Below, piece by piece: positions 17,498 through 27,465 of a stretch of DNA of 32,896 nucleotides (the first letter of the stretch is position 1; every line of letters begins with the position of its first letter). The notes below the pieces were generated by a model. That model was not told the DNA's origin. It saw only the letters and a list, made by a program, of their open reading frames with translations, and ran no database searches. The translations under genes and the position numbers were made by a program. Source of the stretch: Romeriopsis navalis LEGE 11480 (GTDB lineage Bacteria > Cyanobacteriota > Cyanobacteriia > Leptolyngbyales > Leptolyngbyaceae); assembly GCF_015207035.1 (NCBI RefSeq), contig NZ_JADEXQ010000070.1, positions 1 through 32,896 of the forward strand, in the 5' to 3' direction.

Positions 17498-17976
17498 CGC
17501 ACAATACCCTTACCGGGGGAGAGACCACGTCACCATTCGGTTGGAAACAGTAATTACACGGAAAAATATTCCAGTTAACTGTTTGCTTTAAACGATGTGA
17601 GCAATGTACCTCTAAGGTTACCGTGTTCACTCCGTATGCGTATCCGTAATTTCCCTACGATCTTGGGATTTTGATCGGATAAATCTGAGTCCTAACAAAT
17701 CAACAATGGGTAATAGGTTACACGATCGACTACGGAATGAACCGATGAAATATGCGTAATTCAGATACTCTAGTTCGTGGCAGTGGTGTGAGGTTAAATC
17801 GGGGATTCGTGTGATTAAGTGTCTGCAATGTGCAGTTTCCGAATTTCCTACTATCATGTGGCGGCACTGGCGCTGTGCACTGATTGGTTGAGAATGTTTC
17901 GGCCGACTGGATAGTGTAGTACGCTTGAACGTACAGCGTTCTCGCCTTGAAACGCCCCACCCCTATTTTCCGCGTC
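17498..17976. other. Divergent intergenic region, no gene seen
   Basis: The 479 bases lie between the divergent histidine kinase and HerA-like genes. Two overlapping minus-strand frames are open but have un-protein-like composition. I take this as a promoter region for both neighbours. Confidence 0.55.
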
Positions 17977-19653
17977 ATGAATTCCAAGACTTTAAATTAT
18001 GTAGTCGGTACGGTGAAGGGTCCGGGGGAAACGGGTAATCAGTATGTGTTTATTACCTCAGATAACCGTCATGCCCGGATCGGTGAGTATGTCTACTATG
18101 AGGTGCGCGATGGTAAAGCCGATCGCCGGATCTTGGGCAAGGTTTCTGCCCTGCGCTTGATTGATCATTTACCCGATCGACTGTTTGCGGATGCGGAGAT
18201 TAGTCCCCAAGCGATTGCGTCGCTCATTGGCATGACCCATGACAATCCGGAAATTTATGAAGTCGCGGTCGATGTGATTGGCTACTTTGATAAGAATTTA
18301 GGCTTTATGAATCCGCGTAAATCACCGGACCCTGGCGCACGGGTGTTTCTGGCGGATGACGTGATGTTGCAAAATGCGCTGAATCGTAAGTTGCCTGGTG
18401 ACTTGGGTTCGGCGGAGATCGGTTCCCTGCTGCTGCGGGAAATGGGCGCAGTGCCAGTGGCGCTAGATGTGAAGGAGTTGGTCAGTACCCATATGGCGAT
18501 TTTGGCGGGGACCGGATCAGGTAAGTCCTACACGGCAGGGGTGTTGATTGAGGAATTGCTGCGTCCTTATAATCGGGCGGCAGTGCTAATTCTGGATCCT
18601 CATGGGGAGTATCACACGCTGAGTGAGATTCAGGGGCATGAAGATTTCTTTGGGGAAGATGGCTATGCGCCTCAGGTGCGGGTGATTTCGCCGGATGAAA
18701 TTCGGATTCGCATGTCATCGTTGGATTATTACGACATGCTGACGCTGTTGCCCCAGACGACGGAGCGTCAGCAGGCAATTTTAGATAAAGGGTTTCAGAT
18801 TTTAGGCAAGCATCGATCGGGCCATCGCTGGAATGTGCAGGATTTAATTGCCGCAGTGAATGAGGCGGATACGAAGGTTGATGATGATGGGAATGAAACT
18901 GTCGGATCTTCGGCCCAGGCCTTGGAATGGAAGTTGCAGAAGTTGGAACGATCGCGCTATTTCCATGCGTTTGAGCACTCGATTTCGCCACGTGAGTTGT
19001 TTGAGCCGGGGAAGGTGACGATTCTCCAGATGAACGAGATTAGTCAAGAAGAGCAGCAGGTGATCTGTACGGCGGTGCTGCGGCAAGCCAATCATGCACG
19101 GATGGCGACCCACCGGGGCCAGACGGATGAAATGGATGAGAACCATTTGCCCTATCCGGTGTTTATTTTGCTGGAGGAGGCGCACCGCTTTGCCCCGGCC
19201 CATGAGCCGTCGCGTTGTAAGCAGGTGTTGCGAACGATTCTGAGTGAGGGACGGAAATTTGGAATTGGGATTGGGCTGATTACCCAGCGGCCGGGCAAGA
19301 TTGACTCAGATGTCCTGTCGCAATGTATGAGTCAGTTCATCATGCGGATTATTAACCCGGTGGACCAGGAGAGTCTGAAACATGGGGTGGAAGCTGCAGG
19401 GCGCGATTTGCTCAAAGAATTACCGGCTTTGACCAAGGGGCAAGTGATTGTGTCCGGCGCCTGTGTGAATTCGCCGGTCTTATGTAAGGTGCGTACCCGC
19501 TTGACTCAGCATGGCGGTGAGACATTGAATGCGCCCGAAATGTGGCAAAAGCATTTTCAAGGACATCAGATTCAGGCACGAAAGATTGAAGAAGCGCCAG
19601 TATCAATGCCGAAGAAGCCGGTACGCGTGGGGCGCGGGCGCAGTGTGGATTAG
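17977..19653 (+). CDS. HerA-like (DUF87/HAS-barrel) hexameric ATPase
   Basis: The product is 558 aa from ATG 17977, preferred to TTG 17947 because the HAS barrel (VVGTVKGPGETGNQYVFITS) begins directly after it. Walker A is GTGSGKS (about 178-184) and Walker B is VFILLEEAHRFAP, followed by an arginine-bearing segment (SEGRKFGIGIGLITQRPGKI). HerA-FtsK family members translocate along DNA as hexamers and in archaea act with the NurA nuclease in end resection. No NurA-like gene or anti-phage partner is next to it here, so it may be a stand-alone housekeeping ATPase. Confidence 0.88.
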   Translation: MNSKTLNYVVGTVKGPGETGNQYVFITSDNRHARIGEYVYYEVRDGKADRRILGKVSALRLIDHLPDRLFADAEISPQAIASLIGMTHDNPEIYEVAVDVIGYFDKNLGFMNPRKSPDPGARVFLADDVMLQNALNRKLPGDLGSAEIGSLLLREMGAVPVALDVKELVSTHMAILAGTGSGKSYTAGVLIEELLRPYNRAAVLILDPHGEYHTLSEIQGHEDFFGEDGYAPQVRVISPDEIRIRMSSLDYYDMLTLLPQTTERQQAILDKGFQILGKHRSGHRWNVQDLIAAVNEADTKVDDDGNETVGSSAQALEWKLQKLERSRYFHAFEHSISPRELFEPGKVTILQMNEISQEEQQVICTAVLRQANHARMATHRGQTDEMDENHLPYPVFILLEEAHRFAPAHEPSRCKQVLRTILSEGRKFGIGIGLITQRPGKIDSDVLSQCMSQFIMRIINPVDQESLKHGVEAAGRDLLKELPALTKGQVIVSGACVNSPVLCKVRTRLTQHGGETLNAPEMWQKHFQGHQIQARKIEEAPVSMPKKPVRVGRGRSVD

Positions 19654-23165: not shown

Positions 23166-23298
23166 TTTATAAAGAATGCTGTCCTAGAGGACTACCAAAC
23201 AACAATCGCTGAAATATTTTGTTTGGGGTGGCGCGCTCCAGCTTTTTACCGATCGTGCTCTGTTCAGGAGCTTACCAAGGTTGACGACTGATATTGTT

Positions 23299-23691
23299 TT
23301 GAATCAAACATCTGTGTATTTAATTGCAACTCATCCATTGCGATCATAGTCGCCAGATCATTTCCAATATCGTAATCAACATATGTGAGAAATGGCTGAT
23401 TATGTGAAAGCGATTAACGGCAGCACGATCGGTATGGGCGATTTAAATTGTGTCGGTGTGGTCGCCGTGCTCCCCAAAAAACGTTCAGACGGCGGGAGTA
23501 AAAACACTCGCTAGGGATTTGGTGTTCGGCCAATGTGGTCGATGGATGTGCCGCTATTGCCGATGCCGATCGAGCATTGCTTCGTCAGGCATAACGTGAA
23601 GGTGTTGCGTAATCGCATTGGCCCTGATTGTGCTTCGGATCACCCTGTGCTCATAGCGGAATTAAAGATAAAGATATCGCCATTCTGGTGA
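23299..23691 (+). pseudogene. Decayed endonuclease/exonuclease/phosphatase (EEP) family gene
   Basis: One continuous frame shows the C-terminal half of an EEP-family protein interrupted by three stops at 23347, 23386 and 23512. Recognisable in order: VYLIATHPL (family block with THP), then RNQHM and MADYVKAINGSTIGMGDLN (the G-D-x-N catalytic block), then after the third stop GFGVRPMWSM, MPIEHCFV and ASDHPVLIAEL (the S-D-H-x-P catalytic block). The frame ends at a TGA at 23689. There are no frameshifts across about 390 bases. The N-terminal half with the catalytic Asn and Glu is not identifiable upstream. Such proteins cleave nucleic acids or phosphoesters; this copy is inactive. Confidence 0.8.
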
Positions 23692-24114: not shown

Positions 24115-27100
24115 ATGTCTTCTAGACTTGAACCGACAACTCTGCACTACTGGCAAGCACGATTACGGAACTTGCCGTTGGAGCCGCCCGTGCCCCATGA
24201 TTCGGACTCAACGAGTGGGGCGGCGCAGTCGTGGGCGACGGTTAATTTTGGGGAAGATACCAGTCTTCAGTTATTGCGTCTTGCAGCGGCGCTGGCAGTC
24301 GATGTTGATGACGTGGCGATCGGACTCTGGTTGCTGTTGTTATGGCGTTATCGTGTGCAGGCGCCGCTGGTCTGTTGTACCTATGTTGACCAGTCGCAGC
24401 AGTTCCCGTTGCAAGTCAGATTTGAGCCGGATACGTCAATTGCTCAAGCCTTACAGCGGGTTATATCAGAGCGACATCAGTCAACTGATATGGCACTATC
24501 GCCGACGGATTTGCTCACCCTTGCCCAACAGCAAAATCTCGATGCGATGGATCTCTGGGGCCGCATTGGATATGTGGTCGGTGATTTTGATTTGCCAGTT
24601 GATTCACCACTGGGTTTGTTGTTGCAAATCCAACCGACTCAAGCTGAAATCCGCTTGCAATATCGTTCAGAGGGAATTGCACCGGCAATGGTGAGTCGCT
24701 TAGCGCAGCATTATGCCGTGCTCTTGGCGGCGGCGGTGGGTGATGGTGAACAATCGATCGCCACGGTTAACTATCTGACTGCATCTGAGTTGGATCAGTT
24801 GCGCCATCAGTGGAACTCGTCGCCACAAGATTATCCGCGTACTTGGACAATCCATGATTGGTTTGAATATCGGGTAACCCAGAATCCGCAGGCAATCGCC
24901 CTAATTGATGGTGATCAAGCGGTGACTTATGAGGAACTGAACGCTCGCTCGAATCAACTAGCACACTATTTACGTAACTTAGGTGTGCAGCCCGATCAAC
25001 TGGTCGGTGTGGCCCTCGATCGTTCAATCAATTTATTCGTGGCTTTCCTGGGTGTACTGAAATCCGGTGCCGCCTACGTTTCCCTCGATCCTTCCTATGC
25101 CCAAGAACGCCGCGCCTATACGCTGAATGATGCCCAAGCGCAGCTTGTGCTGACCCAGGAAAGTCTGCTGTCACTCATTCCCCAGACTGCGGCGCCAGTT
25201 ATTCCGCTGGATCGTGATTGGTCCGTGATTGATCAATATTCACCGAATAATCCGGTGGCAGTGGCAACACCCGATAATTTGGCCTATGTGCTCTATACCT
25301 CGGGTTCCACAGGTAACCCTAAGGGCGTGATGATTCAGCATGGTGGGCTGGTGAATCATGCCGCAGCCGTGGCGCGGGAGTTTGCGATTCAACCGAACGA
25401 TCGCATGTTGCAGTTCTGTAATATTGGCTTCGATATTATTGTGGAGGAACTCTATCCGACGCTGGTGAGTGGTGCGACGTTGGTGCTGCGGCCCGAATCG
25501 ATTGCCTCTTCAATGCGGGATTTCTGGGACTTTGTGGAGCGTCAGAAAATCACCTTGCTCGATCTGCCGACAGCGTTTTGGCATGAAGTGGTGAATAGTC
25601 TCGTGACGTGTGATCGGGTGTTCCCGAAATCAGTGCGACTCGTCTGTGTGGGCGGTGAGAAAGCATCGCGGACGGCCTATGCCCAGTGGAAGGAGCGGGT
25701 CGCCCCCCAGGTGCGCTGGTTGAATACTTATGGTCCGACCGAGACCACAGTGAGTGCAACGTGGTGCGATCCCGATAAAGATGGATATACGCTGGACATG
25801 GGGGAAGTGCCGATCGGGCTTCCATTGGCCAATTATGAAGTCTATGTCCTTGATGAACGGCAACAACTTTTGCCGGTTGGGATTCCGGGGGAGCTGTGCA
25901 TTGGGGGCCCAGGGGTCGCACGTGGCTACTTAAATTTGCCGGAAAAAACAGCGGAACGGTTTATCGCAAATCCATTTAATGCTGACCCCCAGGCACGGTT
26001 GTATCGCACCGGGGATGTGGTGCAGTTCTGCCCGGATGGGATGTTGGAATTCATTGGCCGATCGGACTTCCAGGTCAAAATTCGCGGCTTCCGAGTCGAA
26101 TTGGGTGAGATTGAAGCCAAACTCGAAGAACATCCGCAGGTGCGTCAAACCGTATTGCTGGCGCAGGAACGGGCTAATCGTAAGGTTTTAATTGCTTACG
26201 TGGTTCCCCAAGTCGGTGTCAATCTGGATGCCAAAGATTTGGGTCACTGGTTGCAGGAGCGGTTGCCGAACTACATGATTCCCAGCCAGTTTATTGTGCT
26301 GGATGCTTTGCCCTTGACCCCTAATGGCAAAGTCGATCGGAAAGCGCTACCAGAACCGGCCATCAGTAGTCGGGAGACGGCGGGATTTCAGCCGCCTGCG
26401 GATGCTTTAGAGATGTCGTTAGTGCGGCTTTGGGAAGAAATTCTGGGTGTCCCCGTGGATGTGACGGATAACTTCTTTGAACTGGGTGGTCATTCGCTAT
26501 TGGTTGTCCGACTGTGTGATCAGATTGAACAAACCCTCCATAGTCGTGTGTCGCCCATGGCGTTGTTTCGATCGCCCACGATCCAACAATTAGCGCGACA
26601 GATTCGGCAGGATGTGACCGAGAATGACGCGCAGTCGAGTGCGGTGGTGATTCAGGCGGGTGCGGAGACGCATTACCCACTATTTGCCATTCATGTGTTG
26701 GGTGAAGGTGGACGTTTCTTCCGTCCCCTGGCCCAAAATATGGGTTTAGAGCAACCCGTATATGGTTTAGCGGCTCAGATGATGGATACGGACACGGCCC
26801 CACCCAATCGGGTGGAAGACTTAGCGGCGTTTTATATTAACGAAATGCAGCTGATTCAGTCGGAAGGGCCGTACCATATTGTCGGGATGTCCTACGGTGG
26901 AATTATTGCCTATGAAATGGCCCGGCAAATGGAGCGGCTGGGGCTACCAATTGGCTTAGTCGGTTTGCTCGATACCTATGGGCCGAATCAGATCGAGAAT
27001 TTGCCCAGCGGCGATCGGCTCAAAGCCCATTGGCGATCGGCCTGCGCCCAGGGCCGCCGTCGGTATCTCAAACATAAAATCCGCAGTGCTATAAACCGTC

Positions 27101-27465
27101 GCACCGAAAAACTCCATTGCGCCTATGGCGGACTCCGTCAGAAAATGGGCCGTCAAGTTTCCTATGAGTTGCAATACAAAATGATTATTGCGGAAAATGT
27201 GCGTGCTGCTGACGCCTATCATCCCGGTCCATTTGGCGGCCGACTGTCGTTATTCCGAGCAACGGATGCGGTGTTTTATCCGCCTGCTTATTTGGAGAGT
27301 GGTCTGGGTTGGCGTAACTTAGCGGGTCAGCTGGATATTTATGATGTGCCGGGTTGTCATATGACAATGGTGGAAGAACCCCAGGCGCAATCGCTAGCGG
27401 GAGAAATGTGTCGGGCGATGTCACAGGTTGCCGGGTCGAGCCAGACATCACGCGCGCCCCGATAG
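24115..27465 (+). CDS. Single-module non-ribosomal peptide synthetase (partial C, A, PCP, TE)
   Basis: The product is 1116 aa. Residues 1-235 resemble the C-terminal half of a condensation domain but lack HHxxxDG. The adenylation domain (about 245-750) has YTSGSTGNPKG (395-405), FDIIVEELYP (439-448), NTYGPTETTVSATW, YRTGD and NGKVDRK. The carrier domain follows (LGGHSL, phosphopantetheine Ser794), then a type I thioesterase (GMSYGG, Ser926; HM near 1082). It would activate one amino acid, hold it as thioester and release it by hydrolysis, cyclisation or transfer. No other biosynthetic gene is adjacent. The hand-read specificity code is D-I-E-D-V-V-T-V-S-K, which I cannot match to a substrate. 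Confidence 0.92.
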   Translation: MSSRLEPTTLHYWQARLRNLPLEPPVPHDSDSTSGAAQSWATVNFGEDTSLQLLRLAAALAVDVDDVAIGLWLLLLWRYRVQAPLVCCTYVDQSQQFPLQVRFEPDTSIAQALQRVISERHQSTDMALSPTDLLTLAQQQNLDAMDLWGRIGYVVGDFDLPVDSPLGLLLQIQPTQAEIRLQYRSEGIAPAMVSRLAQHYAVLLAAAVGDGEQSIATVNYLTASELDQLRHQWNSSPQDYPRTWTIHDWFEYRVTQNPQAIALIDGDQAVTYEELNARSNQLAHYLRNLGVQPDQLVGVALDRSINLFVAFLGVLKSGAAYVSLDPSYAQERRAYTLNDAQAQLVLTQESLLSLIPQTAAPVIPLDRDWSVIDQYSPNNPVAVATPDNLAYVLYTSGSTGNPKGVMIQHGGLVNHAAAVAREFAIQPNDRMLQFCNIGFDIIVEELYPTLVSGATLVLRPESIASSMRDFWDFVERQKITLLDLPTAFWHEVVNSLVTCDRVFPKSVRLVCVGGEKASRTAYAQWKERVAPQVRWLNTYGPTETTVSATWCDPDKDGYTLDMGEVPIGLPLANYEVYVLDERQQLLPVGIPGELCIGGPGVARGYLNLPEKTAERFIANPFNADPQARLYRTGDVVQFCPDGMLEFIGRSDFQVKIRGFRVELGEIEAKLEEHPQVRQTVLLAQERANRKVLIAYVVPQVGVNLDAKDLGHWLQERLPNYMIPSQFIVLDALPLTPNGKVDRKALPEPAISSRETAGFQPPADALEMSLVRLWEEILGVPVDVTDNFFELGGHSLLVVRLCDQIEQTLHSRVSPMALFRSPTIQQLARQIRQDVTENDAQSSAVVIQAGAETHYPLFAIHVLGEGGRFFRPLAQNMGLEQPVYGLAAQMMDTDTAPPNRVEDLAAFYINEMQLIQSEGPYHIVGMSYGGIIAYEMARQMERLGLPIGLVGLLDTYGPNQIENLPSGDRLKAHWRSACAQGRRRYLKHKIRSAINRRTEKLHCAYGGLRQKMGRQVSYELQYKMIIAENVRAADAYHPGPFGGRLSLFRATDAVFYPPAYLESGLGWRNLAGQLDIYDVPGCHMTMVEEPQAQSLAGEMCRAMSQVAGSSQTSRAPR

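Follow-up and report, generated by a model that had tools for sequence, protein, structure and literature searches.

What can a lone NRPS module make when half of its condensation domain is missing and no partner gene lies beside it? The question is raised by a single gene in the window, the whole stretch of DNA that we analysed (32,896 nucleotides), which is the whole of contig C70 in a 251-contig genome rated 99.5% complete. We propose, with a probability of roughly 0.55, that its product is an intact stand-alone C*-A-PCP-TE enzyme (C*, truncated condensation domain; A, adenylation domain; PCP, peptidyl carrier domain; TE, thioesterase) that loads a basic amino acid, which the TE most likely releases onto a small acceptor.

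The synthetase frame is intact and uninterrupted over 1116 codons, and an in-frame stop stands four codons 5' of its ATG (Table 1). Pfam matches follow one another in the order Condensation (residues 10-90 against profile positions 195-277; the score of 22.1 bits falls short of the cut-off, 30.6), AMP-binding (250-606), AMP-binding_C (665-739), PP-binding (769-829) and Thioesterase (855-959), and thus include the AMP-binding domain and the carrier domain with its attachment serine that make up an NRPS module. The Thioesterase family match comes with a Ser-Asp-His triad, as in type I NRPS thioesterases; the triad is read by motif and alignment only and, with Pfam spanning residues 855-959, the domain end is approximate. 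The A, PCP and TE motifs are intact, and the PCP and TE named in a first-pass annotation of this DNA are both found by Pfam and by motif. Pfam detects no docking domain in the protein, TubC_N or other. Codon usage is native-like (CAI 0.779, against 0.724-0.82 for the neighbours); a foreign origin by composition is unsupported, given that GC content and codon usage match those of the neighbouring genes.

Table 1 The synthetase gene and its domains (positions in the window), with other proteins that carry a truncated C domain
Feature	Positions	Strand	Basis
Single-module NRPS gene, 1116 aa, half C - A - PCP - TE	24115..27465	+	ORF and Pfam
Truncated C* (C-terminal lobe of a condensation domain, without HHxxxDG)	24115..24819	+	Pfam, alignment, upstream tblastn
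Adenylation core, code DIEDCGTVSK (last K in the C-terminal subdomain)	24862..25932	+	Pfam, alignment, tree
AMP-binding_C (C-terminal subdomain of the A domain)	26107..26331	+	Pfam
Peptidyl carrier domain, LGGHSLL motif, phosphopantetheine site Ser794	26419..26601	+	Pfam and motif
Type I thioesterase, GMSYGG Ser926, LLDTYG Asp953, GCHMTM His1082	26677..27414	+	Pfam, motif, alignment
Other truncated-C proteins: 3021-aa C10 protein of the same genome, G381, G040, G551, G517, G596			Alignment

The N-terminal 235 residues had been described as the later part of a C-like fold lacking HHxxxDG, a description borne out by alignment to eight full C domains from this genome. Only the C-terminal lobe is present, shortened internally, and the HHxxxDG block found in each of the eight is wholly absent; no HHxxxDG-like motif occurs anywhere in the 1116-aa synthetase. 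The protein therefore lacks the complete C domain with HHxxxDG of a condensation-competent module and has the arrangement of a truncated-C (C*) initiation module, in which a C lobe without its N-lobe stands right before the A domain. Searched alone, the 235 residues match other synthetases with best E-values of 1.9e-6 and 2.2e-8 in two samples, and the BLAST alignments continue from residue 8 into the A domain, so the likeness to half a C domain is above chance. Single-sequence AlphaFold prediction of residues 1-239 gave a mean pLDDT of 35, too low for a usable model.

A complete C domain encoded upstream, which the first-pass annotation had named as a point that could count against its reading, was looked for and not found. 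In tblastn searches with the N-lobes of the eight C domains the best E-value across the window was 0.065, the few matches being dispersed and at chance level, with no match between positions 23166 and 24114, and with the C-lobes two of the eight matched the half-C stretch of the synthetase (E 3e-4 and 3e-6). A frameshifted or hidden N-lobe 5' of the synthetase is thus ruled out by the missing N-lobe match and the in-frame stop. The upstream stretch does hold remnants of a decayed endonuclease/exonuclease/phosphatase gene (23392-23673, + strand; Pfam E 0.0038, below the cut-off).

Truncated C domains of the same type stand before an A domain in at least six other proteins, one of them in the same genome (Table 1); the truncation has Pfam support in G381, G551, G517 and G596, and was recognised in G040 by alignment only. 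The loading module of the thermoactinoamide synthetase is drawn with a "C*, truncated condensation domain, probably inactive", and this C* has been suggested to influence the A domain (PMC7253712). ThdA of that synthetase resembles the present protein in having a truncated, probably inactive C domain right before A-PCP, but continues to further modules, whereas here the TE follows the PCP immediately and no partners were found (PMC7253712). The half C is a recurrent and published trait of initiation-type modules and so does not by itself point to unusual chemistry.

Pocket residues were read by alignment to a GrsA segment, which we take as the position ruler. On this ruler the code is D-I-E-D-C-G-T-V-S-K, and the acidic residues that had been noticed at two pocket positions fall at 239 (Glu) and 278 (Asp). 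The code thus has the D235, the E239 and the D278 (or S278) of basic-amino-acid domains, again on the GrsA ruler; it had been left open whether it would match a common substrate, and its signature does match Arg, Lys or Orn, although none of the published codes compared is identical to DIEDCGTVSK. The pair Glu239 and Asp278 has been described as typical of Arg, Lys and Orn domains (PMC12283262, PMC5311044), and the A domain falls in a supported clade of D235+E239 domains, described below; of the proposed "basic or unusual substrate" the first half therefore stands and the second does not, and the pocket cannot be called odd. Most Arg domains have D235, A/V236, E239, D278, I/V/L299, G301, A322, V/I330, T/D331 and K517; DGEDHGTVVK appears in the paragraph on Lys, DGEDHGTVTK is given for Orn and DMEDVGSVDK for Orn and also Lys, and domains that activate alpha-amino acids retain Asp235 (PMC12283262). 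Thr322 is shared with the Lys code DGEDHGTVVK and the Orn code DGEDHGTVTK, as against the Ala322 of the Arg cluster, and for this reason Lys or Orn is slightly favoured over Arg as the predicted substrate.

The best PDB chain for the pocket region, and hence the closest solved A domain, is ApnA A1 (4d4g, E 7.3e-24), followed by CmnG (E 2.1e-11). The first A domain of ApnA activates arginine and tyrosine and has been crystallised, and Table 2 of the same paper gives DVEDIGAIEK with Arg and DVEDIGGVEK with Arg+Lys for ApnA A1 (PMC5311044). The ApnA A1 codes mostly have E239 with S or D at 278 and go with Arg alone or with Tyr, Lys and others, but ApnA A1 belongs to a multimodular line and its residues 236, 299, 322 and 331 are unlike those of the present pocket (PMC5311044).

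A tree was built from 69 A domains picked by similarity to the synthetase or by presence in the same genome, leaving out rows that covered too little of the query A domain, X-bearing rows and duplicates. All seven domains with D235+E239, this one included, form a single clade (support 97/94, 98% of 200 bootstrap trees), which is a clade of D235+E239 domains only, in a tree without a characterised Lys or Arg reference. Its six nearest relatives among the 68 others, at 44-48% identity, are exactly the six others with D235+E239. D278 is present in five of the seven, L127 having E and L046 having G at this position. The A domain sits on a long branch (0.87; the median is 0.4) and pairs with L127 at weak support (86/38). 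For L107 of G517, position 239 reads E in the code taken from BLAST and L when aligned; this domain is without D235 and lies outside the clade. The surroundings of L130-L133, four related A domains of basic type, gave no clue to a product. The pocket is best read as an ordinary basic one, which probably activates lysine, ornithine or arginine.

The order half C - A - PCP - TE recurs in proteins of 1127 aa in G517 (L117:8076-11459) and 1146 aa in G596 (L118:140-3580), which align with the synthetase over nearly their full length at 32% and 33% identity, respectively. Two such proteins is a minimum, counted from 11 inspected candidate regions (four of nine in one set and all seven of another), and the G596 gene begins 140 bases from its contig end, where an upstream partner is possible. 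Both differ from the synthetase in being without Asp235 and outside the D235+E239 clade, and they therefore probably have other substrates; the missing Asp235 would argue against an alpha-amino acid (PMC12283262). As the three proteins do not group together in the 69-domain tree, this domain order seems to have had more than one origin. In G517 (C2, L117:8076-12762) the same-order protein lies directly downstream, on the same strand, of an HPPD-like (hydroxyphenylpyruvate dioxygenase) gene, a neighbour that suggests an aryl or keto acid substrate for this Asp235-less protein. In G596 (C136) the genes on the 3' side start, by eye, like photosystem II psbA and psbD. A match on a Planktothrix plasmid (H9, 98% query cover) was rejected as a stand-alone half-C protein because it lies within a longer CDS (44047-48273) directly behind other NRPS genes.

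The sequence supports the domain order, the motifs, the lack of a C active site, the lack of partners on the contig and a basic-type pocket, and from these we infer activity, substrate, brace role, acceptor and product. The A domain would adenylate Lys, Orn or Arg and load the adjacent PCP; the truncated C, unable to condense, would do no more than brace the A domain structurally; and the type I TE would discharge the aminoacyl thioester, in the likeliest case onto an amine or alcohol that is small and diffusible, with side-chain lactamisation as the next likeliest route. Of the possible outcomes we favour transfer to a small acceptor, at perhaps one chance in three, ahead of a lactam or dimer and then of no defined function. 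By analogy, amino-acid transfer to small acceptors by one-module enzymes has precedent in MysE, which is NRPS-like and joins serine to mycosporine-glycine to give shinorine (PMC10614408), and in the fungal one-module AneB, in which the C domain carries out the transfer (PMC10720950).

Alternatively, the TE might cyclise the basic amino acid to an Orn or Lys lactam, or couple two of them into a diketopiperazine or dimer. This would suit a terminal TE with triad motifs and a predicted substrate that brings its own side-chain nucleophile, and a review covers A-T-TE enzymes in which two tethered keto acids are coupled (PMC10720950). However, the reviewed cases use keto acids, whereas the D235 of this pocket speaks for an alpha-amino acid (PMC12283262), and no dimerising A-T-TE enzyme with a basic amino acid appears in the portions of the literature examined; we consider the lactam or dimer unlikely, if still worth serious weight.

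The genomic record bears more on whether the gene is a remnant of a larger synthetase gene, left over or in decay, with no defined product. No orthologue of the N-terminal 235 residues was found in the samples searched, the best match beyond the gene itself being that in G517 (E 2.2e-8, 25% identity); the survey of single-module homologues proposed in the first-pass annotation yielded the same domain order at least twice and no orthologue. Any match to these residues occurs in 13 of 58 and 27 of 386 genomes at E <= 0.001 (own genome included), and in 2 of 42 (own included), 16 of 388 and 10 of 387 at E <= 1e-5; the samples overlap and cover part of the phylum, and in the 386-, 388- and 387-genome sets the best seven candidates or fewer per genome were scored. 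The one genome searched in the order of G040 had no match (0/1). A pattern scan of genome contigs matched five stretches and confirmed none as a relative, and is weak in that it demands exact short peptides. The neighbouring genes prmA and serA lie side by side in all 29 relatives' loci, and in all 29 the synthetase is missing beyond prmA (within 1.5 kb), although L081 covers only 300 bases and L091 has a distant A-domain match (24%); prmA is present in 57 of 58 genomes, own included, and the loci compared were the own locus and 29 others. The contig ends 5.4 kb past the synthetase.

On this evidence the gene may be young or a decaying fragment. Its isolation, the empty site in relatives, the adjoining traces of the decayed nuclease-like gene, the missing N-lobe and a crude scan that found no sigma-70-like promoter upstream (0, with 4.7 expected by shuffling) are in keeping with decay; the unbroken frame, the intact A, PCP and TE motifs, the native-like codon usage and the identical domain order in two other lineages speak against it and leave the fragment reading rather doubtful.

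As to partners, the gene had been called an orphan, which holds within the window. Among the scanned window proteins no natural-product genes were recognised; housekeeping genes were seen, several proteins had no family, and tblastn with NRPS/PKS proteins matched nothing in the window outside the synthetase ORF. The contig's cyanobacterial gene content includes an NdhM gene, and positions 17947-19653 (+) encode a HerA-like helicase (its top NCBIfam match scores 196.6 bits, where the curated cut-off is 970). Nothing near the synthetase can be recognised as an acceptor gene. By Pfam and tblastn, the window shows neither the docking domains nor the clustered partners of a multi-protein line; partners on other contigs are possible, and C1, C8, C10 and C61 carry other NRPS loci. 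An in-trans loader for one of these lines (C8, C10 or C61) would fit the presence of such loci and the half C - A module with a related pocket on C10, but the protein start has no docking domain by Pfam, its own TE would release the amino acid and the C10 line already has basic-type A domains, which makes this role improbable.

The C10 cluster of the same genome (G000:C10, about 62-81 kb; L051:129-9194, minus strand) encodes a 3021-aa NRPS of the order TubC_N - C - formyltransferase - half C - A - PCP - C - A - PCP - TE, with the formyltransferase in line, the truncated C in mid-protein and the code DAEDIGTVVK in the A domain after it; a PEP-mutase-like gene lies in the same cluster. A literature search for DAEDIGTVVK and six six-letter DxED strings gave no match. 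A second single-module NRPS-like protein is encoded on C1 (G000:C1, 102415-106557; L053:7415-11557), with 1380 aa, a complete C domain, the code DLYPFSLVW and, by eye, a TE-like end; a related A domain (L019, DLYKFSLVW) occurs in G029 of the same family.

A MysE-like role seems least probable of all. MysA belongs to the DHQ-synthase family, and just two places in this genome (99.5% complete) fall in that family, with no MysA-type gene recognised: one is AroB-like by eye, and the other, which we take to be EboD, has an ebo-like context by eye. This second gene lies near 85390 on C7 (G000:C7, L057), with UbiA-like and TIM-barrel-like frames in the same 3.3-kb locus, which has the look of an ebo operon. 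The domain order of MysE is presumably A-T-TE. Addition of the amino acid to mycosporine-glycine, giving mycosporine-lysine or mycosporine-ornithine, was set aside on these two genes, judged by eye, with very little weight left to it: MysE itself is NRPS-like, is cyanobacterial and joins an amino acid to a small acceptor, but it is serine-specific and sits in a mys cluster, whereas here the pocket is basic, a half C is added and the pathway gene is not recognised (PMC10614408).

Our preferred reading is therefore an intact enzyme acting on its own, which would load a basic amino acid and pass it on, most likely to a small acceptor. A bolder version, tentative and as a whole unlikely, is that an enzyme charging itself with Lys, Orn or Arg makes an undescribed conjugate by TE transfer to a small acceptor, and that the C lobe has been retained several times over, in independent events, as a brace for A-domain specificity. 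The enzyme is of a known sort, with half C and basic pocket both already described, and it leaves the general view of NRPS function unchanged. Should it be active, the enzyme, compact and genetically isolated as it is, would lend itself to studying how a TE deals with a basic aminoacyl thioester where no condensation domain takes part, and it adds one more case of a C lobe kept before a loading A domain, in which a brace role would be easy to test by deletion.
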